Below, piece after piece: positions 11,801 through 46,608 of a stretch of DNA of 51,254 bases. Position 1 is the first letter of the stretch. The number at the start of each line of letters is the position of its first letter. The stretch comes from Clostridia bacterium (GTDB taxonomy: Bacteria > Bacillota > Clostridia > Oscillospirales > Acutalibacteraceae): contig JAFXCT010000126.1 of assembly GCA_017521365.1 (NCBI GenBank), positions 1-51,254 on the forward strand, given 5' to 3'. The notes under the pieces were generated by a model. That model was not told the DNA's origin. It searched no databases and saw nothing but the letters and a program-made list of their open reading frames with translations. Both the position numbers and the translations under genes were made by a program.

Positions 11801-12383
11801 CAAAAAGCTTATCCAGAGCATCCTGAGGAAAGGGGTAGGACGAAACGACCGTGTGTATACGCCTTATCGCTTCTTCAAGCCCCTTATCGCTTGCCCCGGA
11901 GGAAAGTATATCGGTAAGCACGGCAAAGCCCTCACCGCCCGAGGAATACATTTCATCGAGCACGGCTTTGAGCGCCTTTTCGGAATAGGCTTCCTGCTCA
12001 CCGCTGTCAGCAACGGCAAAGCCTGCGCTTATTCCCGTTTCCTGAAAATTCTCACGCACAATGTCCGCACAGAAGCTGTCAACGGTACAGATTTTTGCCG
12101 ACTGCAAAAGAAGCTGCTGCTGCATAAGCCACGCATCGGCAGTTTCAGCAATCTTTGCTTCAAGCGCCGCTTCTATACGCTCCTTCATCTGTGCGGCGGC
12201 GGCTCTTGTAAAGGTAACTATAACAAGCTTATCGGCAGGACAGCGGTTTTCCGTATCGGTAAGGCGGCGTATGACACGCTCGACAAGCACCGCCGTTTTG
12301 CCCGAGCCTGCGGCGGCGCTTACAACAAGCGAGCCTCCCCTGCCCTCAATGGCTTTGAGCTGGTCGTCAGTCCATTTCGGCAT
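8877..12383 (-). CDS. addA: ATP-dependent helicase/nuclease subunit AddA
   Basis: AddA is the UvrD-like helicase and nuclease subunit of AddAB, the Bacillota counterpart of RecBCD, which resects double-strand ends for recombination. The 1168-residue protein has Walker A SAAAGSGKTAVLVERV near residue 25, helicase motifs including IMVDEYQDTNELQD and FVGDVKQSIYRFRQA, LEFPVCILADLSS and ILYVALTRAKELLVF, and a C-terminal RecB-family nuclease with IVIVDYKTDRG near residue 1115. The ATG overlaps the end of addB by 17 bases. Length is typical. Confidence 0.97.
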   Translation of the reverse strand: MPKWTDDQLKAIEGRGGSLVVSAAAGSGKTAVLVERVIRRLTDTENRCPADKLVIVTFTRAAAAQMKERIEAALEAKIAETADAWLMQQQLLLQSAKICTVDSFCADIVRENFQETGISAGFAVADSGEQEAYSEKALKAVLDEMYSSGGEGFAVLTDILSSGASDKGLEEAIRRIHTVVSSYPFPQDALDKLFEPYFTDLPVEESCWGAFLLEDAAVRFDYCRSLMQSAEALLTDINADKATADALSEMVLNEKQMYESLTSIAKSNKWDELVSTLNSRSYCRFSGKRNLDAALKADVKIRRDKAKKTADSVAENFCCTAEEFSADMAMLRPCARALKECVSKYTDELLKIKRLTEKFDFNDIEHIALELLVKKDENGIPQKTPLALALSERFVEIMVDEYQDTNELQDMIFSAISKNESNMFFVGDVKQSIYRFRQAMPEIFLHRRDSVPAFNGDNYPARVNLGANFRSKSNVTKAINFLFTQLMSPQLGEIDYNENERLNAMASGFAEQVQPDVEFYLRDASDQISEPEFVAEYVEKLLASGRLIKDGDTHRPVTPGDICILTRFKKPMMLYAQALEDRGIPAVSFVEGEISCAAEVRMIVSLLKILDNPLQDIPLAAVMMSPVFGFSSTQLANIRMGADRRTPLYRSVVTAANNGDMKCKGFLEKIDSIRRIGIGMGAAELLRRIFDETGILSIAKALSSPEQRVANLYSMLDCASGFDSSGGCGLSAFLRYMEKTKGAGTEYGVAENSHAVKVMNTHKSKGLEFPVCILADLSSNLAHGERSAMSLSRSFGAGLVVKDSLSGKTVKTLPFVAGNRESMLRDLSEEVRILYVALTRAKELLVFVGTESKPADKAANTKLAFCNGTKSLDYGYAVSVNSALDWLLPVFCRHSDAAEFYNLADIDRDRLLLSPDFSLKAQYCNEGFVKAQPIQAQEETPASQPDMELALQIKERTDYVYPYAALSGASSKKLASVFNQEAFDDSFFASSRPAFMNTGGLTAAQKGTLTHRFMQLCDVNNPDVKSQLDRMTAEGIFSETEVKEMKTDELEAFFASELCARIQASQTVMREKKFAMLMSVTEAYPDLPDTFADETIVVQGMLDLAFVEDGEIVIVDYKTDRGVDEAELIRRHSEQLSVYKAAMERCTDCRVKAAYIYSLPLKKEIKVC

Positions 12384-15300
12384 CCTCTGTCCCCTCCTTC
12401 ATAAGCAGTTCAAGGCAATCCTTGTGTTTCATTGACGGGTAATCGTTTACGGGTGCGCCCTCTTCACGAAGGCAGATATCCGAATAGGCGCAGTAGTCGC
12501 ACGGCAGAGAATACGTACCGCCGCTGACAGGCTTCGGTTCAACAAAGCCCTTATGAAGCTTCGTGCCCATTTCACGCACGGTATCAAGCACCGCATCTTC
12601 GAGCTTTCCGAGCGCCTCAAGGCTGATAAGGCTTTCCGCCATATCGCTTTTTCCTGCAATAACCGTACCCGTACACTCACGGTCGGTCGAATGAATAACC
12701 CTATCATCATCAAGAACAAGACCCGTCATCCTGCCCTCTTTGACAACGGCACTTAATATATCTTCTTTGGAGTCGGAATGGTTTATTCTTCCGCCCTTGC
12801 CCTTTGCAGGCACGTAAAGCACGCCCGCAGGCACGACGTTACCGTAGCGCTCCTTGCCGTTTGCCTTTATGGCAAAAAGGTAGAGAAGCATCTGCATATT
12901 GAGTCCGTGAAGAACGTCAACCAGTTTAAAGCTCTTTGAGCCGGTCTTATAGTCCATTACACGCACGAAGGTCTGCTCCTCGGTTTTGAGCACGTCCACA
13001 CGGTCAACCTTACCGTTGAGCACCACCTTACCGCCGTCGGGCAGATTTATTTCGAGCGCAGGCACCTGAGGCGTGTCGCTGCCTATCTGCAGTTCAAAAT
13101 CCGCAGGCTCAAAGTCGCTCAGCTTCATTTCGTTCACAAGCCTTGCCGCAACGACGCAAAGGGAGCTTACAAGCCTTGAATATAGATATACGAAGCGTGC
13201 ATCCTTTTCTTCCGTGCCGCCCATATTCTCTTCCAGGAATATGTTGAGCAGGGCTTCAATTTCTTTCCTGATGCTTTCTTCATCAAGCTCAATAAGCCCC
13301 TTGCCAAATTTCGCAACAAGGTTTTCGAGCACAAAGTGAACAACTGTACCGCTGAGCATACTGTCCATTTCGGCTGTTTTCTGCTCGCCGAGCTTGAGCC
13401 CGTGACGGCAGAAGAACATAAACGGACACTTATTGAAGTCCTCAATCCTCGTGGCGGAGGCGTGGATATCGCTGCCGAAAAACCTCGTTGCAACGGCAGC
13501 ATCGTCTATTCTGAAATTATCGGTTTTTCCCGTTCTGTTGAGTGCTTCTATTCTGTCTGCATATTCCGCTTTTTCCCTGAAGCACAGCTCCAGCGTTTTG
13601 TTGAGCACGCTGTTTTCATTACGGGTCTGTGCAAAAAGCTCAAATGCGGATGCCTCGCTTTCAATAAGCTCAAGCGGCGTATACGCCTTGCTGTCGGTTT
13701 GTCTGCATTCGGGCAGGCAGGCCTTTATTTTGGCAATCAGCTCGGACGGCACGCACTCGTTTCCGCCGAAATCGGTTGCACAATGCGAAACGTAAAGCCT
13801 TTCGTCGGCACAGCAGAGCGCATTATAGGCTATATGCCTTTCCTCAAGAAACGCATATTCAAAGGGCTCGACAATGCTCAGACCCATTTCGGTCAGGGCG
13901 CGCCTATCGGAATCGTTGAGCACTTTGCCCGAGGAAGGCTTTTTAGGAAACACGCCGTCATTCACGCCAACCGCAAACACGGCTCTCGGGCGGTTGACCC
14001 TTATTCTGTCGGCAGAGCCGATTGTAATTTCATCAATACCGGCAGGTATTACACCCATATCCTGCACACCGAGCACGAGAGAAAAAAGCTCGTAAAATCT
14101 TGATGCGCTGATTTTAAGCTCACCCAAAGCACCTGCAAGCTGGTCGAGCATATTCATAAGGCTGTCCCATATTCTGCCAAGCTCCGTCGCTTCGGCGGTT
14201 TCACCGCCAGCATCAAGCGTGACAGCAAGGGATTTCAGATTTTCCTGCACACCGTATTCCGTAAGGCAGTTATACAACGCCGCCGCCATATCACGTGCGG
14301 TTTCCGCTTTTTTTACTGCACCGATATATTTCACCAGAGGTGCCGTGCACCTTTCCCTATATGCGTTGAGTTTTTCGAGTATCTTCACGTCCTTTGCGGT
14401 AACGCCCGAGCCGAGACCCGACGGATTGGCAACCCATTCTTTCAGCCACCTTGAGCCGTCGATACGCCAGAGGTACACATAGTTTTCAAGCTCACACGTC
14501 TGCTGTGTATCAAGCCCCGTAAGCTGTGTTTTAAGCAGACGGAAAACGGCATCGCTCGATATTCCTCTTGCCGCAATCTCGACAAGCGCCCTTGCGGAAA
14601 CTACGGGAGGACAGACCGACATAGGCCTGCGCTTATCCTCAAACACGGGAACACCGTGCTTTTTGAGTGCGGAGCGCAGCGCCTTTGAGTAATCACCCTC
14701 GCTTCGGGAAATAACCGCAATATCACGGCAGCGGTAATTTTCTTCACGCAGTAATTTCTTTATGGTCAGGGCAACAAAATCGCACTCCTCATAGGCTGTC
14801 TTTGCGCTGAAAATGCACACCTCGTCAGCCTTACCGCCGTAAGCCGACGGCTTTGAAGTATAAAGCGATTTTTCGAGCGTTTCAATTGCCCGTGATTTAT
14901 ACCTGCCCTCAAATTCGGGCGGTGTCACATAACCCACGGCAACGTTTCTTTTCTTTGCGGTATCTATGAGCCTTCTTGCCGTTGCACGCACGCAGGCAAA
15001 GGGAGAAATATCGTACTCCTCGCCGTAAACGCTGTCGGTACACAAAGTTACATACGTGTCGTCGCTCTGTGCAATTATATGCGACAGCACCTTGATTTCC
15101 TGCGCCGTAAAGCCCTTAAATCCGTCTGCAAAAACCGTTGCGTTTTTAAAGTACGGCTTTTCTTCAAGCCCGTGTGCAAAAACCGTGAGCAAATCCCTGT
15201 CATCCGAAAAGCTCTGTGCCGCAAGTGCGTCAAACGCCGAGGTTATAAGCGAAAGGTCCGTAAGCTTGTTTTTCAGCATACCCTCAGGCAGTCTGCGTGC

Positions 15301-15714
15301 TGACTCCTCGAGCATTTCGGGCGTAACCGCCCCCTGCTTGAGCTCGGTTGAAACGTTAAGCATTTCGGAAATAACAGCCGTACTTCCGGCGTATTTGCTG
15401 TAAACGCTCATTTTGTCCGCAGTCTGCTCAAGTGCGGTGCTCATAAGCGCTATCATTCCTGCACCGTCAAGCCTGCGGAGCATCCGGCTGTCGCCCACGG
15501 CAGTCTGCGCAAGGCGTGAGAAGCTGCACACCTCAACGTCAAGTGCAGCCTTTTCGCCCAAAAGCTTTATCATACGCTTTTCGCTTTCAAACGAAAACTG
15601 CTCAGGCACAAGCAGAATAACTCTGCTGTCCCCCTTGCGTACACAGTCCTTGATTAGGTTCTGTATATATGTTGTTTTACCGCTGTTGATTCTGCCGAGA
15701 ACGAGTTTGAGCAT
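12367..15714 (-). CDS. addB: ATP-dependent nuclease subunit AddB
   Basis: AddB partners AddA; its helicase-like part recognises Chi and its nuclease domain cuts the complementary strand. The 1115-residue protein starts MLKLVLGRINSGKTTYI, containing Walker A. The RecB-type nuclease motif is RVMDYKTGSKSF near residue 920. Four cysteines predicted to hold the 4Fe-4S staple are present: one in FNKCPF near residue 762 and PCDYCAYSDIC (C-x2-C-x5-C) near residue 1071. ATG 15714 has AGGAGAAATAAAG before it; upstream in-frame sequence contains the promoter and is not coding. Confidence 0.97.
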   Translation of the reverse strand: MLKLVLGRINSGKTTYIQNLIKDCVRKGDSRVILLVPEQFSFESEKRMIKLLGEKAALDVEVCSFSRLAQTAVGDSRMLRRLDGAGMIALMSTALEQTADKMSVYSKYAGSTAVISEMLNVSTELKQGAVTPEMLEESARRLPEGMLKNKLTDLSLITSAFDALAAQSFSDDRDLLTVFAHGLEEKPYFKNATVFADGFKGFTAQEIKVLSHIIAQSDDTYVTLCTDSVYGEEYDISPFACVRATARRLIDTAKKRNVAVGYVTPPEFEGRYKSRAIETLEKSLYTSKPSAYGGKADEVCIFSAKTAYEECDFVALTIKKLLREENYRCRDIAVISRSEGDYSKALRSALKKHGVPVFEDKRRPMSVCPPVVSARALVEIAARGISSDAVFRLLKTQLTGLDTQQTCELENYVYLWRIDGSRWLKEWVANPSGLGSGVTAKDVKILEKLNAYRERCTAPLVKYIGAVKKAETARDMAAALYNCLTEYGVQENLKSLAVTLDAGGETAEATELGRIWDSLMNMLDQLAGALGELKISASRFYELFSLVLGVQDMGVIPAGIDEITIGSADRIRVNRPRAVFAVGVNDGVFPKKPSSGKVLNDSDRRALTEMGLSIVEPFEYAFLEERHIAYNALCCADERLYVSHCATDFGGNECVPSELIAKIKACLPECRQTDSKAYTPLELIESEASAFELFAQTRNENSVLNKTLELCFREKAEYADRIEALNRTGKTDNFRIDDAAVATRFFGSDIHASATRIEDFNKCPFMFFCRHGLKLGEQKTAEMDSMLSGTVVHFVLENLVAKFGKGLIELDEESIRKEIEALLNIFLEENMGGTEEKDARFVYLYSRLVSSLCVVAARLVNEMKLSDFEPADFELQIGSDTPQVPALEINLPDGGKVVLNGKVDRVDVLKTEEQTFVRVMDYKTGSKSFKLVDVLHGLNMQMLLYLFAIKANGKERYGNVVPAGVLYVPAKGKGGRINHSDSKEDILSAVVKEGRMTGLVLDDDRVIHSTDRECTGTVIAGKSDMAESLISLEALGKLEDAVLDTVREMGTKLHKGFVEPKPVSGGTYSLPCDYCAYSDICLREEGAPVNDYPSMKHKDCLELLMKEGTEDAEMD

Positions 15715-15742
15715 CTTTATTTCTCCTGAATTTGATAATCTG

Positions 15743-15771
15743 ATAATACCACAATAAAAGCTTATAATCAA
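15743..15771 (-). promoter_or_regulatory. sigma-A promoter of addB-addA
   Basis: On the minus strand TTGATT (15766-15771), 17 bases, TATTAT (15743-15748), with extended TGG before the -10. It lies about 25 bases before the addB start. Confidence 0.75.
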
Positions 15772-31477: not shown

Positions 31478-33685
31478 TTATTCTACCGTAATATTTTTAC
31501 CTGTCTTGCAATCCTCTGCAAGGTTGAGGTTCATAAGGATTACGGGCTTATCGGCAGAAACGGAAACGACCTTGCCGTTTTTCCACTTGAAGGAAAGCTG
31601 TGCGCCGTTGATGAGCATATTCCTGACCTCGCCGTTTTCCCAAGCAGAGGGAAGTGCAGGAAGAAGTTCCGTTTTGCCGTTTTCGCTGTAAACGAGCAGA
31701 GCGTTTACGCCTGCGGTAAAGCCGAAGTTGCCGTCAATCTGGAAAAGGAAGGGCGGATGAGTGTCGAAAAGGTTGGAGAACACGGAATAAGTGAGCATAT
31801 TTGCAATAATCTCGCTTGCCGTATCGGGCTCGTGGAGAGTACCTGCAAGGCAGATTGCCCAAGCGGCAGACCAGCCGATATAGCGTTCCCAGTTCTTCTT
31901 GCGGAAATGGTAAAGCTCACGCACCCACTCACGCTGTTCTTCGTTTTCGTAATACTTGATTGTATCCGACGGATAAAGACCGTAGAGAGGTGAAAAATGT
32001 CTGTGACCCGGCTCGTGAAGCTCGTAGTCCTTTGACCACTCCATAATGCCCGTACTGCCCTTTTTCAGCGGACGTAGCTTTGCAAGCTTCTCCTTAATCT
32101 GCTTGGCAAGCTCACCCTCGGACTCAAAATCAAGATAAGCAAGCAAACCCTTTCTTGCAACCTCCATATCGAAGGCACTGGCGCAATCAATTGCAATTGA
32201 CCTGCCGTTAAAGCTGAATTCGTTTTCGGGTGAGGTTGAGGGAGCAACAACGTATTCGCCGTTGAACTCAACAAGATAATCGTTGATAAACTCTGCAGAA
32301 GCCTTTACGCTTTCAAAAATCTTGTCCTTATACTCGTCAAGGCCGCCGTTCTTATAGTGGCCGTAAACCTCATTCACAAGCCACGCACCGCAAAGCGGAG
32401 AGAACATATAGCACGGGTCGCCCTCAACGGGTGAGGTCTTGCGCCAAAGGTCCGTATTGTGGTTACAGCAGGCACCCTTACAGCCGTAGTTCGTCTTTGC
32501 CGTGCTTCTGCCCGTCTGCATAAGCTCCCACGCAAGATTTACAAAGGGCTCGGCACATTCTGCCATATTGCTCTTTGATACGGGCCAGTAGTTCATTTCC
32601 GTGTTGATATTTACAGTATAGTTACTGCTCCACGGGGGACGTACCCTTGCGTTCCATATACCCTGCAGGTTAAGCGGCTGACCGCCCTTACGGCTGCCGG
32701 CAATCATAAGGTACTTGCCGTAGTTATAGAAAAGCTCAACGAGCTTGGCATCAGGCTTGCCCTTCTTTGCAGTTTCAAGGAGCCTGACCGTTTCTTCTTC
32801 GCTTGTGCCGCCGATTGAAAAGCTCTGTCTGTCAAAAATTTTCCTGTAATCGGCAACGTGCTTTTTAAGGAGCTTATCGTAATCGGGCTTTACATTTGCA
32901 AGCTTCTTTATGCAAGCCTTTCTTACAGCCTCACGGTCTGTTTCGGGCATTTTATCGTAAGCAATAAAGCCCGTGGCGGTTGTGGCAAGAAGCACGGTTG
33001 ATGTGGAATTTTTGACCGTTATTTTTTTGTCGGAATATATAACCTCACCGTCAGTAACAACCTTTACGGCAAGGCAGAACGCCATACCCTTGTCGCCGTA
33101 AATAACGGCATCGGGAATTTTGCCGAGGTAACTCGGCATAGAAATATCGGGCGCATTACCGCAAAGGCAGAGGTAACCGTCCTTTACAACCGTCTTTGAC
33201 TTAATCTTTGATTTTGCCTCAACAGTAATATTGACGGGCTTTTCGCTTTCGCTTTTATAAACGACAACGTCGTCGGGATAAGAAGCAAAGGCTGTACGCT
33301 TTTCGCCCTTGAACGAAACGGTATGTACGGCGTTATCGATATCAAGCTCTCTTGTGTAGCCCTTTGTAGTCAAGGAGGAAAAGCTGATTTTAAGGTCGCC
33401 GAGGGGTGTATAAGCCTCGCTGTAGCAGCCGCAAAGCTTGCTTTCAACTATGTCGTGTGCCTCGTCGGGCTTGCCTGCAAAAATGAGCTGACGCACCCTT
33501 TCAAGGTTTTCAAGGCTTTCGGGGTTATCCTGATTTTTCGGGAAGCCCGACCAAAGCGTTACGTCGTTAAAGCAGAGCGTTTCCTTTCTTCTACCGCCCC
33601 AGACCATAACACCCGTGTGTCCGTTACCCAGCGGAAGCGCCTCGTTCCAGAGCTTTGCCTGTTTCTTGTACCAGAGTTTGTTCAT
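31478..33685 (-). CDS. alpha-L-fucosidase-type glycosidase, GH95 family
   Basis: Inverting glycosidase of family GH95 (alpha-1,2-L-fucosidase, in some members alpha-L-galactosidase). The 735-residue protein starts LWYKKQAKLWNEALPLGNGH, the typical N-domain opening, followed by FNDVTLWSG. The catalytic (alpha/alpha)6 domain has INTEMNYWPVSKSNMAEC near residue 355 and EPGHRHFSPLYGLYPSD near residue 570, both signature regions. No signal peptide: cytoplasmic. AGAGGTC precedes the ATG. It begins 18 bases after a histidine kinase gene, so it is the third gene of a regulator-sensor-enzyme operon. Host mucin or plant hemicellulose oligosaccharides are likely substrates. Confidence 0.92.
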   Translation of the reverse strand: MNKLWYKKQAKLWNEALPLGNGHTGVMVWGGRRKETLCFNDVTLWSGFPKNQDNPESLENLERVRQLIFAGKPDEAHDIVESKLCGCYSEAYTPLGDLKISFSSLTTKGYTRELDIDNAVHTVSFKGEKRTAFASYPDDVVVYKSESEKPVNITVEAKSKIKSKTVVKDGYLCLCGNAPDISMPSYLGKIPDAVIYGDKGMAFCLAVKVVTDGEVIYSDKKITVKNSTSTVLLATTATGFIAYDKMPETDREAVRKACIKKLANVKPDYDKLLKKHVADYRKIFDRQSFSIGGTSEEETVRLLETAKKGKPDAKLVELFYNYGKYLMIAGSRKGGQPLNLQGIWNARVRPPWSSNYTVNINTEMNYWPVSKSNMAECAEPFVNLAWELMQTGRSTAKTNYGCKGACCNHNTDLWRKTSPVEGDPCYMFSPLCGAWLVNEVYGHYKNGGLDEYKDKIFESVKASAEFINDYLVEFNGEYVVAPSTSPENEFSFNGRSIAIDCASAFDMEVARKGLLAYLDFESEGELAKQIKEKLAKLRPLKKGSTGIMEWSKDYELHEPGHRHFSPLYGLYPSDTIKYYENEEQREWVRELYHFRKKNWERYIGWSAAWAICLAGTLHEPDTASEIIANMLTYSVFSNLFDTHPPFLFQIDGNFGFTAGVNALLVYSENGKTELLPALPSAWENGEVRNMLINGAQLSFKWKNGKVVSVSADKPVILMNLNLAEDCKTGKNITVE

Positions 33686-35708: not shown

Positions 35709-35737
35709 TTGAATTTATGCCCCATATAGAGTAATAT
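35709..35737 (+). promoter_or_regulatory. sigma-A promoter of the redox/lyase operon
   Basis: TTGAAT (35709-35714), 17 bases, TAATAT (35732-35737), about 40 bases before the OYE ATG. It is the only clear promoter ahead of six closely packed genes. Confidence 0.75.
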
Positions 35738-35778
35738 GGTTTTAAATAATTATTCATTTATTTTACGGAGAACTGCCA

Positions 35779-37104
35779 ATGATTCGCAAGGTTTATACAA
35801 GCAAGGACGAATTTATTTCACAGCGTGACGAATTGAAGCTGAACATACCGTATGCCGAGGATGTTTCCGTGCTCGGAACGCCTTTACAAATCGGCAAAAA
35901 AGCTGTACCCAACCGCCTTGCCTGCCAGGCTATGGAGGGCTGTGACGGCACGGCTGACGGCTCACCCGATGAGCTGACGATACGCCGCTACGACCGTTTT
36001 GCCAAAGGCGGTGCCGGCACAATATGGTTTGAAGCCACCGCAGTTATGCGTGAGGGCAGAGCAAATCCCCGACAGCTTTGGATACACAACAGCAATATTG
36101 ACTCTTTCCGGCGTGAGGTTGAGCGGATTAAGCAGACAGCCGTTAAGGAAAACGGCTTTGAGCCGCTCGTAATAATGCAGGCAACGCACTCGGGCAGATA
36201 TTCAAAGCCCGACGGCACACCTGCACCGCTTATTGCGTATAACAACCCCATTTTTGAAAAAGACACTCCCATTGACAAAAGCCGTATCGTTACCGACGAA
36301 TACATTGATACGGTTAAGCAAGCGCTGGTTGAGGCTTCTCTGCTTGCAGAAAAAGCAGGCTTTGACGGTGTTGACATAAAAGCGTGCCACCGCTACCTGA
36401 ACTGCGAGCTGCTTTCCGCATACAACCGTGAAGGCAGATACGGAGGCAGCCTTGAAAACAGAACAAGGCTTTTAAGAGAAAGCATTTCGGGCGCAAAAGA
36501 GGTATGCTCAACGGATTTCATCGTGTCGTCAAGGCTTAACGTTTACGACGGTTTCCCCTACCCCTACGGCTTCGGTGTGAAGGGCGACGGCTCAACCGAT
36601 TTCGACCCGACAGAGCCGATATGGCTGCTCAGAGAGCTTGCAAAATCGGGCGTTGAGCTGCTGAACATAACTATGGGCAACCCCTATTTCAATCCGCACG
36701 TCAACCGTCCGTTTGCAAGCGGCGGTTACGATATTGACGAACATCCGCTTGAGGGTGTTGCAAGAATGTTAAACGGTACGGCAGAGCTGAAAAAGCAGGT
36801 GCCGAACATTAAAATAATAAGCTCCGCTCTCTCCTACCTCGGTGCGGCGGCGCCCAACGTTGCGGCAGGTTATATTGAAAACGGCGGTTTTGATATTGCA
36901 GGCTTCGGCCGAACGGTTTTCGCCTACCCCGATTTTGCAAAAGATATAATCAATGACGGCAGTATGAAAAAGGAAAAGCTTTGCATCTGCTGTTCAAAGT
37001 GCACGCATATTATGCGCTGTGCCGGCGGTACACCCGGCTGTGTAATCAGGGATAAGGACGTTTATTTACCGATATACAAAAAGCTTTGCGGAGGTAACGG
37101 ATAA
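35779..37104 (+). CDS. Old Yellow Enzyme-type NADH:flavin oxidoreductase
   Basis: FMN-dependent ene-reductase of the OYE/2,4-dienoyl-CoA reductase group. The 441-residue TIM barrel shows IGKKAVPNRLACQAMEGCDG near residue 40, YDRFAKGGAGTIWFEATAV, MQATHSGRYSKPDG, AGFDGVDIKACHRYLNCELLS-type sequence and YGGSLENRTRLL, the family's core motifs. A cysteine cluster at residues 402, 404, 405, 408, 414 and 421 is compatible with the 4Fe-4S site of the reductase subgroup, although the spacing is not the exact textbook one. The C-terminal FAD/NAD(P) module of dienoyl-CoA reductases is missing, so electrons must come from elsewhere. First gene of a six-gene operon; GGAG precedes the ATG. Confidence 0.9.
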   Translation: MIRKVYTSKDEFISQRDELKLNIPYAEDVSVLGTPLQIGKKAVPNRLACQAMEGCDGTADGSPDELTIRRYDRFAKGGAGTIWFEATAVMREGRANPRQLWIHNSNIDSFRREVERIKQTAVKENGFEPLVIMQATHSGRYSKPDGTPAPLIAYNNPIFEKDTPIDKSRIVTDEYIDTVKQALVEASLLAEKAGFDGVDIKACHRYLNCELLSAYNREGRYGGSLENRTRLLRESISGAKEVCSTDFIVSSRLNVYDGFPYPYGFGVKGDGSTDFDPTEPIWLLRELAKSGVELLNITMGNPYFNPHVNRPFASGGYDIDEHPLEGVARMLNGTAELKKQVPNIKIISSALSYLGAAAPNVAAGYIENGGFDIAGFGRTVFAYPDFAKDIINDGSMKKEKLCICCSKCTHIMRCAGGTPGCVIRDKDVYLPIYKKLCGGNG

Positions 37105-37842
37105 ATGAAAAAAATTGCATTGGTAACGGGTGCTTCCGCAGGAATAGGCAGAGCCTCGGCAAAGGCACTTCTTGAAAACGGCTTTGCCGTAATCGGTATG
37201 GGCACGAGAGAAAGAGAAACCGACCCGCTCGGCGGAGAATTCACCTACGTTTCGGGCAGTATAGCCGAGGCCGCAGACAGGGAAAGGTTTGTTAAAACCG
37301 CCCTGGATAAATACGGCAGAATCGACGTGCTCATAAATGCTGCCGGCGTTGCGCCCAAGGTAAGGGCAGACGTGCTGACAATGAGCGAGGAAAGCTACGA
37401 CAGGGTTATGGGCATAAACACCAAAGGCACGCTTTTCCTCACACAGCTTGCCGCAAACGAAATGATAAAAAACGAGGGTGACAGTAAGGGCACAATCGTC
37501 AACATTTCCTCAATTTCCGCCTACACAAGCTCGCCCAACAGAGGTGAATACTGCATATCCAAGGCAGGAGTTTCAATGATAACCAAGCTCTTTGCCGACA
37601 GGCTTTCCGAATACGGTATACCCGTAAACGAAATCCGTCCCGGCATAATTGCAACGGATATGACGTCGGGCGTTAAAGAAAAATACGACTCACTTATCGG
37701 CAGCGGCTTGCTTCCGATTAAGCGTTGGGGCACTCCCGAGGATGTTGCGGCGTGTGTACTTGCACTCTGTAACGGCTCACTCCCCTATATTACGGGTCAG
37801 TCGTTTGACGTAGACGGCGGATTCCACCTGAGAAGGCTTTGA
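37105..37842 (+). CDS. short-chain dehydrogenase/reductase (FabG/KduD-like)
   Basis: Classical SDR, 245 residues: TGASAGIGRASAKAL at residue 8, NAAGVAP near 80, catalytic S-Y-K in NISSISAY and YCISKAGVSMI near 150, and the C-terminal PYITGQSFDVDGG typical of sugar and keto-acid SDRs. It may reduce or oxidise a keto-sugar or deoxy-keto-uronate. The ATG follows the OYE stop with no gap (TAAATG) and its GGAGG lies within the OYE gene, so the two are translationally coupled. Confidence 0.92.
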   Translation: MKKIALVTGASAGIGRASAKALLENGFAVIGMGTRERETDPLGGEFTYVSGSIAEAADRERFVKTALDKYGRIDVLINAAGVAPKVRADVLTMSEESYDRVMGINTKGTLFLTQLAANEMIKNEGDSKGTIVNISSISAYTSSPNRGEYCISKAGVSMITKLFADRLSEYGIPVNEIRPGIIATDMTSGVKEKYDSLIGSGLLPIKRWGTPEDVAACVLALCNGSLPYITGQSFDVDGGFHLRRL

Positions 37843-37844
37843 TT

Positions 37845-39707
37845 ATGGATTTTTTAACCTTTGATGCACTTGTAATCGGCAGCGGAGCAGCAGGCTTCAA
37901 CGCTGCTAACACGATAAAAAAGTTGGGCAAAAAAAGCGTTGCCGTTATTACGGAAGGCGTTAACTGCGGCACTTCACGCAACACGGGCAGCGACAAGCAG
38001 ACCTACTACAAGTTAGGTCTTGGCGGCGACAGCCCCGACAGCGTGAGAAAAATGGCGCAGAATCTTTTTGCGGGCGGATGCACCGACGGCGACACGGCTC
38101 TTTGCGAGGCGGCGCTTTCGGTGAAATGCTTTATGCACCTTTGCGAGCTGGGCGTGGAATTCCCCTGCAACCGCTACGGTGAATACATAGGCTACAAAAC
38201 CGACCACGACCCCTACGCAAGGGCAACCAGTGCAGGCCCTCTCACCTCACACTATATGACAAACGCACTTGAAGCAGAGGCGAAAAGGCTTGAGGTGCCT
38301 GTATTTGACGGACTTCTTGCCGTTGAAATACTAAAACACAACGGTGAGGTCTGCGGGCTTATTTGTTTGGAAAAAGCAACGGGCAAATTCAGGGTTTTCC
38401 GTTGTACGGACATAATTCTTGCCACGGGCGGCCCTGCAGGAATTTACGCACACAGCGTTTACCCCGAAGGGCACACGGGCTCAACGGGGCTTGCGATTAA
38501 AGCAGGTGCAAGTCTTCAGAATATGACCGAGTGGCAGTACGGCCTTGCAAGCGTTAACCCGAGATGGAACGTTTCGGGCACGTATATGCAGTGCCTTCCC
38601 CGTTTTGTTTCGGTTGACGAAGACGGAAAAGAGCACGAATTTTTAGCAGAATTTTTTGACGATATTTACGGGGCACTTTCGCTCGTATTCTTAAAGGGCT
38701 ATCAATGGCCGTTTGACAGCAAAAAGGTGCTTGAAGGCTCATCGGTAATCGACCTGCTTGTATACCGAGAAACGGCAATAAAAAGCCGAAGAGTTTATCT
38801 TGATTTCACAAAAAATCCGTTCGGGCTTGAAAAAATTGATTTTGAAAAGCTGTCACAGGAAGCATTCTTATATCTGAACAACGCCTTTGCGTGCTTTGGC
38901 ACGCCGATAGAAAGGCTTACCAAAATGAACGCACCTGCGGTTGAATTATACCGCTCAAAGGGTGTTGATATAAGCAAAGAACGGCTTGAAATTGCACTTT
39001 GCGCACAGCACAGCAACGGCGGTGTTGCCGTTGATTTATGGTGGCAGAGTGACGTAAAGGGGCTGTTTGCCGCAGGCGAATGTGCAGGCACACACGGAAT
39101 AACCCGACCCGGCGGAAGCGCACTCAACGCAGGTCAGGTCGGCTCATACAGAGCGGCACAGTACATATCCGCACAAAACAAGGAGCTTTTATCCGAAAAA
39201 GAATTTGAAAGCGTTTTTGAAGCGGCATTAAAGGAACAGAACGTATTTTATTCTAACGCAAAGGCTGAAATTGCCAAGGCGCAAAGCCGTATGAGCAACA
39301 CCTGCGCCGCAATAAGGAACAGGCAGGCAATACAGACCGCTCTTGAAGAAACGCTCGGTACAATCGGCAGATTTGAAACGGCAGAGTGTACGTCGGAGGA
39401 ACGTTGGAACACGTTTAAGCTGCGTGATATTCTGCTCACACAGGCGGCTGTTTTAACGTGTGCAAACGATATGAACATCAGCCGCGGCAGTGCAATATAC
39501 ACCGACGAAAACGGTGCTTGGAGAAACGGACTTGACGAGATTTTCCGCTTTTCATCAAATGAACTTGCCGCCGACAGAATTCAGCAGATAAAATATGCCG
39601 ACGGCAAGTTCAGCACACTTTGGCGCAGCGTGCGTCCGATTCCCGATGACGGTGATTTTTTTGAAAATGTGTGGCGAAGCTACAGAGAAAACAAAAACAT
39701 TTTTTAG
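37845..39707 (+). CDS. FAD-dependent oxidoreductase, fumarate reductase flavoprotein-like
   Basis: Soluble flavoprotein of the succinate dehydrogenase/fumarate reductase/L-aspartate oxidase superfamily, 620 residues. FAD-binding GSGAAGFNAA at residue 12, NTGSDKQTYYKLG, ILATGGPAGIYA near 190, then HSNGGVAVDLWWQSDVKGLF and GECAGTHGITRPGGSALNAG near 410-430, where H and R residues match the active-site region. No flavin-transfer or cytochrome domain and no signal peptide. In the operon it could oxidise or reduce a sugar acid, or pass electrons to the OYE protein. ATG 37845 has AGAAGG eight bases upstream. Confidence 0.9.
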   Translation: MDFLTFDALVIGSGAAGFNAANTIKKLGKKSVAVITEGVNCGTSRNTGSDKQTYYKLGLGGDSPDSVRKMAQNLFAGGCTDGDTALCEAALSVKCFMHLCELGVEFPCNRYGEYIGYKTDHDPYARATSAGPLTSHYMTNALEAEAKRLEVPVFDGLLAVEILKHNGEVCGLICLEKATGKFRVFRCTDIILATGGPAGIYAHSVYPEGHTGSTGLAIKAGASLQNMTEWQYGLASVNPRWNVSGTYMQCLPRFVSVDEDGKEHEFLAEFFDDIYGALSLVFLKGYQWPFDSKKVLEGSSVIDLLVYRETAIKSRRVYLDFTKNPFGLEKIDFEKLSQEAFLYLNNAFACFGTPIERLTKMNAPAVELYRSKGVDISKERLEIALCAQHSNGGVAVDLWWQSDVKGLFAAGECAGTHGITRPGGSALNAGQVGSYRAAQYISAQNKELLSEKEFESVFEAALKEQNVFYSNAKAEIAKAQSRMSNTCAAIRNRQAIQTALEETLGTIGRFETAECTSEERWNTFKLRDILLTQAAVLTCANDMNISRGSAIYTDENGAWRNGLDEIFRFSSNELAADRIQQIKYADGKFSTLWRSVRPIPDDGDFFENVWRSYRENKNIF

Positions 39708-39717
39708 GAGAGCAGAT

Positions 39718-40461
39718 ATGTACAGCCTGGGTCTTGTTTCAATATCCTTCCGCAAGCACAGCCCCGAAGAAATAATACTTTCCGCCAAGAAAGCAGGGCT
39801 TGAATGCATCGAATGGGGCAGTGACGTACACGCACCGTATAACGATAACGAAAAGCTGAACGGTATTGCTGCTTTGCAGAACAAGCACGGTATTTGCTGT
39901 TCATCCTACGGCACTTATTTTCGTCTTGGTGTAACACCTACGGAAGAATTGCCGCAGTATATTTGTGCCGCAAAAAAACTCGGCACGGATATTTTAAGGC
40001 TTTGGTGCGGCGACAAGGGCTCTGCCGAATATTCACAGGAAGAAAAAGAGCTGCTTTTTGCAGAGTGTAAAAAAGCGGCGGCAATTGCCGAAAACAGCGG
40101 CGTTACGCTTTGTATGGAGTGCCACAACCACACGTTTACCGATGAATTAATTGCGGCGCTCGAACTGATGAACGCCGTCAACTCCCCTGCTTTTAAAATG
40201 TACTGGCAGCCCAACCAGTATAAAACGATTAATAGCAATCTGGAATACGCTGAAGCGATTTCCGATTACACCCGACATATTCACGTTTTCAACTGGTCGG
40301 GTGACGAGAGATATCCGCTGGGAGAAAGCGTAGATTTATGGCGGAAATACCTTGGGAAGTTCAAGGGCGAACGGGCTTTGCTGCTTGAATTTATGCCCGA
40401 TGACGATATAAATTCCTTAAGCCGTGAGGCTGACGCACTGAGAAAAATTGCAGGTAATTAA
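39718..40461 (+). CDS. sugar phosphate isomerase/epimerase-like TIM barrel
   Basis: AP-endonuclease-2/xylose-isomerase-like TIM barrel, 247 residues, a fold used by epimerases, IolE dehydratases and C-glycoside-cleaving subunits. Presumed metal ligands: E134 in CMECHNH, H187 or H189 in RHIHVFNW and E224 in LLEFMPD. The fourth position, normally aspartate, is Q164 in YWQPNQ; this variant exists in uncharacterised members, from memory. ATG 39718 with AGGAG ten bases before it is clear; sequence upstream in frame belongs to the previous gene. Fourth gene of the operon. Confidence 0.85.
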   Translation: MYSLGLVSISFRKHSPEEIILSAKKAGLECIEWGSDVHAPYNDNEKLNGIAALQNKHGICCSSYGTYFRLGVTPTEELPQYICAAKKLGTDILRLWCGDKGSAEYSQEEKELLFAECKKAAAIAENSGVTLCMECHNHTFTDELIAALELMNAVNSPAFKMYWQPNQYKTINSNLEYAEAISDYTRHIHVFNWSGDERYPLGESVDLWRKYLGKFKGERALLLEFMPDDDINSLSREADALRKIAGN

Positions 40462-40462
40462 A

Positions 40463-41464
40463 ATGAAGAGTATATTTTTGTGCGAGGTTGCAGACAACCC
40501 CGAAAGAGTTTTTTCAAAAGAAACCGTTGCTCTGCTCAAGGAAAAGGCAGGGCTTGAAGAAGCGGTTTACAACAAGGATTTTTTATATAAAAACCCCGAT
40601 AAATTTACCGACACACGGTACATTTTTTCAACCTGGGGAATGAGTGAGCTGACCGAAGAAGAAATTGAAAGATTTTTCCCGAGGCTTGAATGTGTGTTTT
40701 ACGCCGCAGGTACGGTACAGTATTTTGCCAGACCGTTTCTGAATAAGGGTATTCATATTTTCAGCGCATGGGCGGCAAACGCAGTACCCGTTGCGGAGTA
40801 CACACTGGCACAGGTTCTGCTTGCAAACAAGGGCTTTTTCCTTACCTCCCGTTTGCAAAGCACGGGCGAAACCCGAAAAGCAAACGCAGAAAAAGAAAAA
40901 TACAAGGGCAACTTCGGCGAAACGGTGGGCATAATCGGTGCAGGAATGATAGGCAGTCTTGTAATCGAAATGCTTAAAAATTACAAGCTTAACGTTAAAG
41001 TGTTCGACCCGTTTTTGCCCGACGAAAAAGCTGAAATGCTCGGCGTTGAAAAATGCCCGCTTGAAGAAATCTTTTCCACCTGCTCCGTTGTTTCAAACCA
41101 CCTTGCAAACAACGAGCAGACCCAAGGGATGCTGAAAAAAGAGCATTTTTCGGCTATGCTCCCCTACGCAACCTTCATAAACACGGGCAGGGGTGCACAG
41201 GTTGTTGAAAAGGATTTGGCTGACGTGCTTGAAAGCAGACCCGACCTTACCGCTCTGCTTGACGTTACACACCCCGAGCCGCCCGAGGAAGGCCACGCAT
41301 TTTACGCTCTGCCCAACTGCATACTCACGCCGCACATTGCAGGCAGCAGCGGCAACGAGGTGCACCGAATGGCAGAATATATGGCAGAGGAATATCTGCG
41401 GTTTGCCGCAAACGAGCCGTGCAGATACGAAGTAACACTTAAAATGCTTGAAACTATGGCGTGA
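40463..41464 (+). CDS. D-isomer specific 2-hydroxyacid dehydrogenase
   Basis: NAD(P)-dependent interconversion of a 2-keto acid and its D-2-hydroxy acid. The 333-residue protein has the Rossmann motif GIIGAGMIGS near residue 157 and the full catalytic set: R243 in NTGRGAQV, E272 in HPEPP and H291 in LTPHIAGS. It starts one base after the upstream stop (TAAAATG). Glyoxylate, hydroxypyruvate or sugar-derived 2-keto acids are typical substrates. In this operon a 2-keto sugar acid is the obvious guess. Confidence 0.92.
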   Translation: MKSIFLCEVADNPERVFSKETVALLKEKAGLEEAVYNKDFLYKNPDKFTDTRYIFSTWGMSELTEEEIERFFPRLECVFYAAGTVQYFARPFLNKGIHIFSAWAANAVPVAEYTLAQVLLANKGFFLTSRLQSTGETRKANAEKEKYKGNFGETVGIIGAGMIGSLVIEMLKNYKLNVKVFDPFLPDEKAEMLGVEKCPLEEIFSTCSVVSNHLANNEQTQGMLKKEHFSAMLPYATFINTGRGAQVVEKDLADVLESRPDLTALLDVTHPEPPEEGHAFYALPNCILTPHIAGSSGNEVHRMAEYMAEEYLRFAANEPCRYEVTLKMLETMA

Positions 41465-41475
41465 GGTGAAAATTA

Positions 41476-43404
41476 ATGTGCAACCCGTATTTTACAAAGG
41501 ATTACATTGAATTTATCAAAGCCTGCGAAGACCCGATGCTCATTTCGCTCAGAGAAGCCGTTATTGCCGCAGCAGACAAGGCGCTTGAGCTTGAGCCGAT
41601 TGCAGAATTCACCGTTAACGAAAGCGGTGAAGAACAACCCAATTACGGCCCGGCCTGCTTTCAGATAGAGGGTAACGCTATGCCTCTGGGCTTGGCCTAC
41701 CATATTACGGGCAAGGAGGAATATTTCCTTAAGGCGAGGGAGCTTATGCTCGCATACTGTGCTTACACCAAGTGGGGCGGTGATGAGTTTTTCAAGGGCG
41801 ATTTGCTGACGGGACATTTCTGCACGGGTATGGCTCAGGGCTATGCCTGCTTCAGGGATGTTTTAAGTGAGGAAGACAGAAAAACCATAGCGGAAGCTAC
41901 GTACAGGCTCGGTATCCGTGTACTGCTTGAGGACTGGGTGCTGCCCGAAACAAAGGCACATTGCTTTGACACGATGGGTCACAACTGGTGGGCAGTCTGC
42001 GCTTCAAACGGCGGACTTGCCGCAGCCGTAATGAGCGAGGATATTCCCGAATGCAGAGAGCTTGCCGACATTACCGCAAAAGGTATGGAGGAATGGTTCA
42101 ATTACCAAGGCAACCCGATTAACGTAAAGCCCGCAACGCTTGATGACGGCGCATTTTACGAGAGCGTGAGCTACTACAACTACGCTCTTTTTGAGTACCT
42201 TCGCTTTGCGTGGGCTTATCTTAAAACTACGGGTAAGGCACCGTTTGATGATGCGGCGATTCTGCGCCGTGCGGCACGCTTTTTCGTGCAGACCACCTAC
42301 CCGTCCGGCAAGGACAATTATTTTGTCGGCTTCGGCGACTGTGACAGAGGAACGGGCTTTGCCTCCTGCGTTCCCCTGCTGCTTGCACGCCTGCCCGATT
42401 TAAAAGAGCTTAAATGGTACGTAAGCAGTAAAGTAAACTTGCAAAATGACTGTATCTGCGAAAGGCTGTTACATTATAAAGATATATATCCGGCCGAAGA
42501 AAAAGCCCCCGAAGAAACCGCCTGTTTTTATCCGAACATAGGCTGGGCGGTATTCAGGGACAGCTTTGCACCCGACAGCAATTTGCTTGCCGTAAAATGC
42601 GGCGACAGCTGGAACCACGCTCACCTTGATGCGGCACATTTCGTGCTGTACAGAAACGGTGTGCCGGAAATTTACGATTCGCTCGGCTGCAACTATTCCA
42701 AGGAAATTTACAGAGATTATTTCGTTCAGTCCGCGGCACACAACGTTGTGCTTTTCAACGGGCAAGGTCAGCACCACGACGACCACCATCACCACGTAAG
42801 GGCCGTCGGAAAGCTGTACAATTTTACGGACGAGCCGGATTTCCGCTACGTTGCGGCAGATGCAAGCGGCCCTATGGGCAGGCATTTTCGCAAGCACTTA
42901 AGGCATTTCCTGTGGCTTAAGGATTTCATACTTATTTATGACGATATTCAGGCACACGAGCCGGGCGAAGCAAATTTCCTTCTCCACGCAAACGAGCCGA
43001 CCTGCTTCAAAATGCTCACAGAGTGTGAGGAAAGAGAAGAAAAAGGCGTATTCGGAGAGGATGCGCACGAGGTAACGTTCAAGTCCTTCAACCGTAATAC
43101 GGACAGCGAGGGCAGGGTAAAATTCGTTTCCGTGCTGGCACTCGGCGAAGAAACGCCGACAATGCAGAAGCTTGACGAAGCGTATAAAATAACCTGCGGC
43201 GACACAAAGGTTTACATAAACCTTTTAAGCGACGGCAGGGTTATGCACCGCAACTGCACCAACACCTTTGACGGCATAACGACCGATGCGGTAATTCTCG
43301 TTGAAGACGGCGAAGGCTATGCGGCAGTAAATGCAAGCTCAATAAGGAAAGACGGTAAAAGCCTTTTTGACAGACTCAGCAGAATTACGGGCAGAATAAA
43401 ATAA
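41476..43404 (+). CDS. heparinase II/III-like polysaccharide lyase or hydrolase
   Basis: Two-domain protein of 642 residues: an N-terminal (alpha/alpha) toroid to about residue 350 and a C-terminal beta-sandwich of the heparinase II/III type. MGHNWWAVCASNGG near residue 170, SVSYYNYALFEYLRFA near 235, and NHAHLDAAHFVLY with AAHNVVLFNGQ near 380-430 are the family's conserved blocks; the H-rich stretch HHDDHHHH follows. Relatives are oligoalginate, heparin and chondroitin lyases. No signal peptide, so it would act on imported oligosaccharides. GAGGTGAAAATTA precedes the ATG. Last gene of the operon. Confidence 0.85.
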   Translation: MCNPYFTKDYIEFIKACEDPMLISLREAVIAAADKALELEPIAEFTVNESGEEQPNYGPACFQIEGNAMPLGLAYHITGKEEYFLKARELMLAYCAYTKWGGDEFFKGDLLTGHFCTGMAQGYACFRDVLSEEDRKTIAEATYRLGIRVLLEDWVLPETKAHCFDTMGHNWWAVCASNGGLAAAVMSEDIPECRELADITAKGMEEWFNYQGNPINVKPATLDDGAFYESVSYYNYALFEYLRFAWAYLKTTGKAPFDDAAILRRAARFFVQTTYPSGKDNYFVGFGDCDRGTGFASCVPLLLARLPDLKELKWYVSSKVNLQNDCICERLLHYKDIYPAEEKAPEETACFYPNIGWAVFRDSFAPDSNLLAVKCGDSWNHAHLDAAHFVLYRNGVPEIYDSLGCNYSKEIYRDYFVQSAAHNVVLFNGQGQHHDDHHHHVRAVGKLYNFTDEPDFRYVAADASGPMGRHFRKHLRHFLWLKDFILIYDDIQAHEPGEANFLLHANEPTCFKMLTECEEREEKGVFGEDAHEVTFKSFNRNTDSEGRVKFVSVLALGEETPTMQKLDEAYKITCGDTKVYINLLSDGRVMHRNCTNTFDGITTDAVILVEDGEGYAAVNASSIRKDGKSLFDRLSRITGRIK

Positions 43405-43406: not shown

Positions 43407-44632
43407 TCACTCCGGATTATCTTCTGATAGTCCGGAGTTTTCGTTTATTATGAGTAAAGCAACAAGTATGAATGAAACGAACAGTATTGCAAACGTTCTG
43501 TAGCCCGAAGCCCATACCGTAGGCGAAAAGCCCATAAGCACGCGGCTGCCAAAGCCTGCGGAAAGAACGAGTGCACCAATCATTTTTGCCTGTTTTGTTT
43601 TCAGAAGCGCAAAAACCGCAATTATAACGCAGACTGCAACAAGCAGGAACAGCAAATCCGAAACGGGGCTGAAAACGTATTCCGCCTTGCCTACCCTGCC
43701 GTTTACCAGACCGCCGCAGACGGCCTTTACCCAATCGGGCCTTATTAATGACGTGATGCCAAAGCCAAGTACAAACACAAGAGGAAATACGCTTGCGGTT
43801 TTGACTGAGGTTTTACCGCAAAGCCTTACACCGCTGACAGCAAGAAACAGCGCAAAAACGGCAAAGCCCGCAAAGGCAAGGCGAAGCTCCATAGTCATAC
43901 AGTAAAAGGTTGAAGAAAAGCCGAGCTCTGCTTTTTGCAGGACGCTGAGTTCACCGAAGCCCGGAAAATACCGCGCTGTTTCGCGAAGCATTCTCGAATT
44001 GTCGGAAAAGACGTTAAGTGAATACGTATACACAGCCATTGCGCCGACGGCAACAGTCTGCAAGAGTGAGTACAAATCAAAATCTTTTCTGACAAACCAT
44101 AGATAAAAGTTTGTGCAAAGCAAAATTCCGAGCAAAGCCGCACACATCTGCTGCATATTGCAGGCATAAAAAAGCAACGGAACAATTGCAAGCTTATACC
44201 ACAGCGGTGTTCTTTCTTTGAGCAATTTGTTTCTTACGGGGAACAGACACAGCAGACCAAAGGTTATGGGCCAAAGGTAATTTACCGTTGTTGCGATAAA
44301 ACCTGCATCGACAAGCACCATTGACGGAAAAACCGCAAAGCAGGAAACGAGCTTTGTTGCCCGGCTTTTACGCACGGGCAATATTTCTTCAACGGCCGCC
44401 AAAAGAATTGTCAGCACAAGCGGATTTGCAATACGCCACGCAAGGTTAACCTTTGCGAAAATATAAGTTGCGGCATCGGTCAAGGGTCGGGCACTTGTCA
44501 GAAGAAATCGTCAAGCGAGGTTGAAGCCGCCTTTTCGTAAAACACGGCATCGTCCGACCAGTTAAGCGGCAAGAAAAAATGCACAACAAGCGCAGCGAAG
44601 AAAAAAGCAATATAAAACCTGTATCTTTTCAT
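43407..44632 (-). pseudogene. DUF6056-like polytopic membrane protein, frameshifted
   Basis: The gene starts at ATG 44632, one base after the SGNH gene, and encodes MKRYRFYIAFFFAALVVHFF then LNWSDDAVFYEKAASTSLDDFF before TGA at 44498-44500. In the -1 frame the sequence continues at once as LTSARPLTDAATYIFAKVNL and runs open to 43407 with about ten hydrophobic helices. Joined, the product is about 410 residues, similar to the glucosyltransferase-like DUF6056 membrane proteins (short N-terminal helix, acidic pair after it). One missing base near 44500 would restore it. The downstream part alone could start only from TTG 44483 without a good ribosome-binding site. No good site precedes 44632 either. 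Confidence 0.7.
43409..43441. terminator. bidirectional terminator at the lyase/DUF6056 junction
   Basis: ACTCCGGATTATC (43409-43421), TTCT, GATAGTCCGGAGT (43426-43438), then TTTTCGTTT. The 13-base stem (one wobble) lies inside the last codons of the minus-strand gene and just after the plus-strand lyase stop. Confidence 0.85.
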
Positions 44633-45537: not shown

Positions 45538-46608
45538 ATGAAAATTGAGCTTATAGGGAAACCTGAAACAATAATATCCAACCCCGACAGCAAGCACAAC
45601 TATTTTGGTTGGCCGACGGCTGTCACTCTGCCCGACGGCAGAATTGCTGTAGGTGCTTCGGGCTTTCGGCTTGAACATATCTGCCCCTTCGGCAAGGCTG
45701 TAATTTCTTATAGCTATGACGGCGGAAAGACCTATACACGCCCTGCCCCCGTTATTGACACACCGCTTGACGACAGGGACGCAGGTATATGTGTTTTCGG
45801 CGAAAACTCGGTTATTGTAACCTCGTTCAACAACTCTGCCGATATGCAGCGCCACCACAACACTAAAAACAGATATGTGCAAAACTACATAAACACAATC
45901 ACAAAAGAGGACGAGGAAAAGTACCTCGGCGCAACATTCCGCATAAGCCGTGACGGCGGAATAACCTTCGGCGAAACCCACCGCTCCCCAGTTACCTCTC
46001 CGCACGGACCCGTTGAGCTTCGTGACGGCACGGTTTTGTGGGCAGGAACAAGGTTTGAGGATATTTTTGCAGGCATTGAGGTGCACAGGCTTGACACCGA
46101 AACCTGCCAAACCGAGCTTGTTGGCAAAATAATCAGTCCGGACAAAAACGCCGTGCTCAACGAGCCGCACCTGATTGAACTGCCCGACGGCAGACTTATC
46201 TGCCACATCAGAGGCGAAAACTCAGAGCTGTTTGACGGCGGCAAGGAGCACCTTTTCACAACGTTCCAGAGTATTTCCGAGGACGGCGGCAAAACCTGGA
46301 CCGAGCCCGAAATGCTGCTTGACAAAACGGGCGGTGCACCGCCCCACCTGTTTATGACAAGCAAAGGTGTTCTGCTTTGCACCTACGGCAGAAGAAAAAA
46401 GCCCTACGGCATTATGGCAATGTTCAGCACCGACGGCGGCAAAACCTGGGAAAAGGATGTGCGCCTTTACGAAAACCCGTTCAGCGACGACCTCGGCTAC
46501 CCCTCAACGGTTGAGCTTGACGACGGCACGCTGATAACGGTATTTTACGCAAAGAACGAAAAAGACGGCCCCTGCGAAATCATACAGCAGAGGTGGAGAA
46601 TACTGTAA
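45538..46608 (+). CDS. sialidase-like Asp-box beta-propeller protein
   Basis: Probable exo-glycosidase-like propeller, 356 residues. Four clear Asp boxes: SYDGGKTY near residue 60, SRDGGITF near 138, SEDGGKTW near 248 and STDGGKTW near 300. FGWPTAVTLPDGRIAVGASG opens the first blade and EPHLIELPDGRLICHIRG lies near residue 215. No signal peptide or transmembrane segment, so it acts in the cytoplasm or leaves by another route. The sialidase arginine triad could not be confirmed, so a sialidase name would be unsafe. Starts at ATG 45538 after GGGAGATGATGAA. Divergent from the SGNH gene. Confidence 0.75.
   Translation: MKIELIGKPETIISNPDSKHNYFGWPTAVTLPDGRIAVGASGFRLEHICPFGKAVISYSYDGGKTYTRPAPVIDTPLDDRDAGICVFGENSVIVTSFNNSADMQRHHNTKNRYVQNYINTITKEDEEKYLGATFRISRDGGITFGETHRSPVTSPHGPVELRDGTVLWAGTRFEDIFAGIEVHRLDTETCQTELVGKIISPDKNAVLNEPHLIELPDGRLICHIRGENSELFDGGKEHLFTTFQSISEDGGKTWTEPEMLLDKTGGAPPHLFMTSKGVLLCTYGRRKKPYGIMAMFSTDGGKTWEKDVRLYENPFSDDLGYPSTVELDDGTLITVFYAKNEKDGPCEIIQQRWRIL

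Follow-up and report, generated by a model that had tools for sequence, protein, structure and literature searches.

Introduction

A survey published in 2025 and covering 3,550 strains grouped gene clusters for unsaturated uronates by their combinations of KduI or DhuI with KduD or DhuD, and it put the co-occurrence of kdgA and kdgK with these DHU (linear-form uronate) isomerase-reductase clusters at 98% (PMC12838403). For glycosaminoglycan clusters, the accessible text calls a GH88 hydrolase universal, together with KduI or DhuI and KduD or DhuD (PMC6045597, PMC12838403). Here we analyzed a six-gene operon in a 51,254-nucleotide stretch of DNA from a Clostridia bacterium of the Acutalibacteraceae (contig JAFXCT010000126.1, positions 1 to 51,254, assembly GCA_017521365.1), referred to as the window. 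The operon encodes an Old Yellow Enzyme (OYE)-type reductase, a short-chain dehydrogenase/reductase (SDR), a fumarate-reductase-like flavoprotein (FP), an AP_endonuc_2 TIM barrel, a D-2-hydroxyacid dehydrogenase (D2HDH) and a heparinase II/III-like lyase. Judging from gene content, the OYE-SDR-FP triad is probably a third entry to 2-keto-3-deoxygluconate (KDG); if so, a flavin-dependent route into uronate catabolism has been overlooked.

The kduI-kduD and dhuD-dhuI clusters and their hybrids, as described in the accessible parts of PMC12838403 and PMC6045597, have in common with the triad an upstream lyase, an SDR-type reductase and downstream KdgK and KdgA. The triad differs from them in that KduI (PF04962) was found within 8 kb of FP in 0/44 genomes and in that it does not include GH88. 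The clusters contain nothing equivalent to OYE and FP, and the word 'flavin' occurs 0 times in the main text of PMC12838403. In the levoglucosan route (LgdA/B1/B2/C), as far as the accessible text of PMC7676230 goes, oxidation, elimination and reduction are shared among several small enzymes, a likeness to the triad, and 3-keto redox-elimination is also reported in excerpts on O/C-glycoside eliminases (PMC10628242) and GH4 (PMC7676230). Some triad operons carry a TIM barrel from a superfamily in which elimination enzymes occur. In contrast to the triad, the passages of PMC7676230 and PMC10628242 describe no pair of flavoproteins working on a C=C bond. Among the entries listed in our literature search, which mostly did not extend to subscription papers, none reported an OYE-SDR-FP triad.

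Results

A conserved three-gene core with optional partners

Neighbourhoods were scored for genes lying within 8 kb of FP in 120 loci (designated by L numbers), comprising 40 FP loci from a class sample and 80 named loci from a species-genome scan; the two sets overlap partly, and L038 and L105 look like one contig. Exclusion of loci with short flanks (10 and 35, respectively) left 30/40 and 45/80 complete neighbourhoods. OYE and SDR were both present in 27/30 complete neighbourhoods of the class sample and 41/45 of the named genomes, that is 68/75 in total, and one or both were missing beside FP in L040, L060, L063, L120, L150, L153 and L154. Scored singly, OYE was found near FP in 28/30 and 41/45, the TIM barrel in 6/30 and 20/45, D2HDH in 5/30 and 20/45, and the lyase in 4/30 and 13/45. 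OYE, SDR and FP are the conserved unit; TIM barrel, D2HDH and lyase are optional. The conserved co-occurrence that the initial annotation named as a check on its reading was borne out, with a core of three genes; the six genes as one obligate unit were rejected on these counts.

The exact six-gene order recurred in L080, L086 and L092 among the 72/80 named loci whose gene order could be displayed (39/40 in the class sample; a simple caller of open reading frames (ORFs) missed FP in the rest and mis-assigned some strands, such as SDR in L055 and KdgA in L051). Since this order is found in three loci and the core in 68/75 neighbourhoods, the arrangement did not arise by chance. A related layout, OYE-SDR-FP-TIM-lyase with a divergent D2HDH, was seen in L095, L097, L099-L103, L108, L111 and L140. 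Within the class, FP was detected in 63/391 genomes (56 at 44% identity or more), and the species-genome scan gave at least 572 matched stretches; among the matches listed, carriers were many herbivore-gut Clostridia and some Spirochaetes. Faecalispora jeddahensis, a cultured relative, has OYE, SDR and FP (L112). The heparinase-like gene had a match at 1e-20 in 4/295 genomes of the window's order, the other three at 30-40% identity.

Sequence features of the core proteins

Pfam agreed with all six family names of the initial annotation. In NCBIfam, five of the six proteins gave no match over cut-off, the exception being SDR. OYE matched PF00724 (E 1.8e-24). A [4Fe-4S]-type motif, CxxCxxC-x10-13-C, was present in 83/88 aligned rows and K201-x2-H204 in 79/88, the window being counted twice in this set. 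Ordinary OYEs carry a His-x2-His/Asn active-site pair; the barrel is thus that of an OYE, whereas Lys replaces the usual His at the first position of the classic His/His or His/Asn pair. The models for BaiCD and bilirubin reductase, clostridial OYE-type [4Fe-4S] proteins, have the same barrel and Cys cluster and gave weak matches, but the window OYE scored far below their cut-offs, has this Lys and has a fixed FP partner. The OYEs of the triad, that of the window included, mostly lack the C-terminal FAD/NAD domain found in BaiCD and bilirubin reductase. Extended OYEs of 841-895 aa occur in L045, L047, L048, L061 and L070; in L048, the sole one read, the second half resembles by eye a GltD-type NAD(P)H/Fe-S domain, GltD being an NAD(P)H-dependent electron-input protein.

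SDR matched PF13561/PF00106 and scored 296.8 bits against NF009386, a generic '3-ketoacyl-ACP reductase' model with a cut-off of 250. Against the KduD model it reached 150.7 bits, well below the cut-off of 338.85 and hence short of KduD level. Y149 and K153 were conserved in at least 90% of 91 rows (window counted twice).

FP matched PF00890 (FAD_binding_2; E 9.3e-28), and its alignment to FrdA covered the FAD and substrate regions. Of the FrdA residues that we take to be the substrate-binding ones (two His and one Arg, in what we take to be FrdA numbering), R390 is kept as R422, H232 is replaced by G235 and H355 by Q389. FP has in common with fumarate reductase and L-aspartate oxidase flavoproteins the FAD_binding_2 fold and one substrate Arg; it differs from them in the two changed residues, in the distinct motif GTSRN-GSDKQTYYK and in having no adjoining gene for an Fe-S subunit, as neither an Fe-S nor a haem partner gene was found in the operon. 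With two His lost, a true fumarate reductase was rejected. Flavoenzymes of both the FRD and the OYE type transfer hydride at C=C bonds beside a carbonyl or carboxylate. OYE-like NADH-input domains in fused acrylate/fumarate reductases were rejected as a precedent, the literature search having given no such paper.

Sequence features of the optional proteins

The TIM barrel matched PF01261 (E 4.3e-16). With an E threshold of 0.01, AsbF (3dx5, E 3.8e-7), a 3-dehydroshikimate dehydratase, was the sole Protein Data Bank (PDB) entry that it matched; the superfamily includes elimination enzymes. This match is a lead towards the second suggestion of the initial annotation, a variant of 3-keto-sugar elimination, which is a candidate reading. 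E134, H136, H189 and E224 were conserved in at least 90% of 34 rows, and in D2HDH (PF02826, E 6.8e-43) R243, E272 and H291 in at least 90% of 36 rows, both sets counting the window twice. A dihydroorotate-dehydrogenase-like Fe-S protein, recognized by eye, lies near the TIM barrel in L121 (16159-17382), L123 and L143, two of which are from Spirochaetes.

The lyase matched PF07940 (E 2.1e-16), with PDB matches to oligoalginate lyase 3a0o (E 3.2e-12) and PL35 chondroitinase 9o3q (E 1.2e-9). N170, E229, Y233, H381, H383, D385 and H422 were invariant in 15 rows including a second lyase group. The two main groups are only 17-21% identical, yet have the same Asn, Glu, Tyr, three His and Asp. The protein combines the C-terminal Hepar_II_III domain with the catalytic Asn/Tyr/His set of heparinase II/III enzymes, the roles of these residues being presumed, and its predicted activity is beta-elimination on a uronic glycan. 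A further heparinase-like lyase is found in L045, L047 and L048 (Pfam-checked in L048); in L047 and L048 a 5-oxoprolinase-like three-gene set, identified by eye, also lies 3' of the triad.

Lyase and KDG genes recur beside the triad

We compared 44 genomes carrying FP with 36 lacking it. The former remained from the 63 after removal of 7 weak matches (33-37% identity) and of 12/56 others by our own selection, mostly of lower completeness or with partial FP; the latter were taken in list order from 328 (G296 skipped; G326 only 62% complete). PF07940 genes were present in 30/44 carriers and 9/36 non-carriers (Fisher 1.4e-4). A PF07940 lyase lay near FP in at least 7/44 genomes, a lower bound that includes a lyase of G486 placed from L037, where 0.78 were expected. 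On the FP tree, a lyase or a protein family that we call c23 occurred at 27/110 rows, with 12 changes, and in L088 a PL8 lyase stands in place of the heparinase-like one. This repeated association supports the uronate-lyase setting that the initial annotation had assigned to the operon. The c23 proteins (about 560 aa) lie beside the triad in six loci (L036:12689-14386, L037:14477-16177, L064:5301-7001, L091:12907-14571, L125:11767-13422 and L082). Five members gave no Pfam match over threshold and a two-row profile no PDB match; c23 may be an unrecognized lyase or glycosidase. For GH88/105, a single weak match was found within 8 kb of FP among the 44 genomes, and GH88 had 0 matches in the window's own genome, which sets the locus apart from the glycosaminoglycan clusters.

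KdgK and/or KdgA were located within 8 kb of FP in 15/120 loci (L036, L050, L051, L064, L068, L069, L071, L076, L077, L088, L093, L119, L120, L127 and L147). On a single FastTree phylogeny of FP this trait was scattered over 14/110 rows with at least 10 changes, the pattern expected from repeated recruitment, although gene loss or the ends of contigs may account for some of the changes. Six of seven scanned kinases scored 486-622 bits against the kinase half of a KHG/KDPG aldolase/kinase fusion model, whose cut-off of 700 bits applies to the whole fusion; the seventh, in L071, matched KDG-kinase models below cut-off. The gene order in L071 is OYE-SDR-FP-KdgK-KdgA. KDPG aldolase was present in 43/44 FP carriers and 23/36 non-carriers (Fisher 7e-5), and KdgA lay within 8 kb of FP in 5/44 genomes where 0.45 were expected. 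The window's own genome encodes a KdgK, 61% identical and truncated by the contig start at G000:C86, followed in order by an AraC-like regulator, a GPH-type transporter and a GH2-like gene (all by eye). KdgA comes before KdgK in L036; the gene may therefore have been lost at the contig break in the window's genome.

A proposed route from unsaturated uronates to KDG

What the data show directly is the gene content, the conserved core, the repeated association with lyases and KdgK/KdgA and the retained catalytic motifs; the substrate and the direction and order of each redox step are inferred. The reading that we favour, with about an even chance of being correct, is a conserved module for uronate catabolism, with OYE-SDR-FP as its constant part and KDG as its end product. 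The cytosolic lyase would release a 4,5-unsaturated uronate, which, as such or in its linear form DHU, would be converted to KDG by the triad aided by the TIM barrel and D2HDH. KDG kinase and KDPG aldolase, encoded outside the operon, would complete the breakdown. OYE (with FMN and [4Fe-4S]) and FP (with FAD and the carboxylate-binding Arg) would most likely work together, adding hydride to a C=C bond beside a carbonyl or carboxylate or taking it away, and the data are consistent with such a redox pair; SDR would act on a keto or hydroxy group of the same skeleton.

The boldest scheme compatible with the chemistry and gene content, and one that we consider quite improbable, is a redox elimination via a 4-pyranone carboxylate that would replace unsaturated glucuronyl hydrolase and KduI/KduD. 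In this scheme SDR would oxidize a 4,5-unsaturated uronide at its allylic C3-OH. The aglycone would then be expelled, by the TIM barrel or spontaneously, to give a comenate-like 4-pyranone carboxylate, and OYE with FP would reduce this fumarate-like acyl-acrylate to KDG. Overall the scheme would cost one NAD(P)H between the unsaturated uronate (C6H8O6) and KDG (C6H10O6), as the known route does. Among the entries listed in the literature search on comenic acid, and likewise on 4-O-methylglucuronate catabolism, no relevant pathway was found.

Several observations weigh against a lyase-fed module ending in KDG. Of the three FrdA-type substrate residues aligned, two are replaced in FP. KdgA is near FP in just the 5/44 genomes, and none was found in the window's own genome (86% complete), the sole FP carrier without one. 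KduI-family proteins are encoded elsewhere in 19/44 carriers (the contrast with non-carriers is not significant), so that the triad is not the sole possible route there. None of TIM barrel, D2HDH, lyase, c23, KdgK or KdgA lies, at the thresholds applied, within 8 kb of FP in 60/110 FP rows and 37/75 complete neighbourhoods, and a lyase product is therefore unlikely to be the sole source of substrate. Other neighbours vary, including 5-oxoprolinase-like sets, a glycerol-kinase-like gene and TRAP and branched-chain-type ABC transporters (mostly by eye), IlvD/Edd-like dehydratases in five FP loci (mostly by eye) and URO-D-family proteins in L051 (Pfam-checked), L054, L106, L109, L116 and L124. 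Finally, phylogeny and life style are confounders of the genome-level associations, and on the tree truncated contigs are scored as lacking the gene, which enters the change counts.

Alternative substrates and routes

If the triad acted on imported monomers rather than on lyase products, then lyases would be one feeder among several. The substrate would in that case be a hexuronate or aldonate (glucuronate, or an iduronate/idonate-type acid), with KDG still the end. We regard this as possible though on the unlikely side; the neighbourhoods bare of accessory genes, together with the dehydratase and transporter neighbours, make it the main rival. Other triads have TRAP/ABC-type transporters and IlvD/Edd-like dehydratases (by eye) as neighbours, which would fit it, as would UxaC within 8 kb of FP in 2/44 genomes, a mannitol-dehydrogenase-family enzyme in L112 and the lack of nearby lyase and KDG genes in the 60 rows. 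Genome-wide, however, UxaC (32/44 carriers against 19/36 non-carriers) is not significantly associated with FP, and several lyase groups joined the triad at scattered positions of the tree.

SDR and the TIM barrel could also be an ordinary DHU isomerase and DK-II reductase in the style of KduI/KduD or DhuI/DhuD, with OYE, FP and D2HDH serving another part of the glycan or an electron sink. SDR does give a score to the KduD model, and the genes for TIM barrel and D2HDH tend to occur jointly (27 loci each, 24 with both, of the 80 named loci). That score nevertheless falls far short of the KduD cut-off, and the neighbourhood counts given above bind OYE more closely than the TIM barrel to SDR and FP; we consider this arrangement unlikely.

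Loss of methanol by redox elimination from an O-methylated uronate, namely the 4-O-methylglucuronate of xylan or arabinogalactan, would accord with the many herbivore-gut hosts and with the URO-D-family proteins in six loci. It is very improbable and was rejected as the substrate, as GH67 shows no association with FP (over cut-off in 5/44 carriers and 4/36 non-carriers, and within 8 kb of FP in 0/44). The initial annotation had noted that the operon has neither KdgK nor KdgA, which the ORF list confirms, and had proposed a reductive by-pass of KDG ending in a 2-hydroxyacid, with which the conserved Arg/Glu/His of D2HDH would agree. D2HDH is optional, however. Sister triads have KdgK/KdgA as neighbours and the window's own genome encodes a KdgK, so that the operon's lack of both is no argument for such a by-pass. 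We rejected it because KdgK/KdgA join the triad in relatives, and consider it very improbable.

Operon layout and neighbouring genes

Coordinates are collected in Table 1. The close packing of the six genes described in the initial annotation is borne out by the ORF coordinates: the intergenic gaps are, in order, 0, 2, 10, 1 and 11 bases, and all ORFs are intact. From this spacing the six genes are probably co-transcribed. FP has a second in-frame start option, a TTG at 37839. No signal peptide was recognized by eye at any of the six N termini, in line with the earlier reading. Of the promoter placed at 35709, the plus-strand site itself is present, but its 8/12 match lies below the threshold of 9/12, at which no plus-strand promoter was found upstream of OYE. 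The terminator at the operon end is strong and sits between convergent genes.

Table 1. Coordinates of the operon and its signals in the window.
Feature	Position	Strand	Remarks
Promoter-like site, weak	35709..35737	+	TTGAAT-17-TAATAT, 8/12 match read by eye
OYE	35779-37104	+	ORF; core gene 1
SDR	37105-37842	+	ORF; core gene 2
FP, fumarate-reductase-like flavoprotein	37845-39707	+	ORF, ATG start; core gene 3
TIM barrel, AP_endonuc_2	39718-40461	+	ORF; optional gene
D2HDH	40463-41464	+	ORF; optional gene
Heparinase II/III-like lyase, cytosolic	41476-43404	+	ORF; optional gene
Intrinsic terminator, operon end	43409-43438	+	13-pair stem, 4-base loop, T-rich tail

Upstream of the operon lies a divergent pair resembling, by eye, a response regulator and a sensor kinase. 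The operon region is flanked by a GH95 glycosidase (31478-33685) and a BNR-repeat protein (45538-46608). BNR_4 proteins are encoded at other loci too, next to the operon in L035 and upstream of it in L036. In L079, L080 and L092, and in part in L086, the triad is immediately preceded by a GH30 (Pfam-checked in L092), a MalY/PatB-like and redoxin-like fusion (by eye) and a GPH-type transporter. L039 encodes a protein that by eye resembles the uroporphyrinogen-decarboxylase family. Elsewhere in the window, positions 8877-15771 hold two long overlapping minus-strand ORFs of 1168 and 1134 aa.

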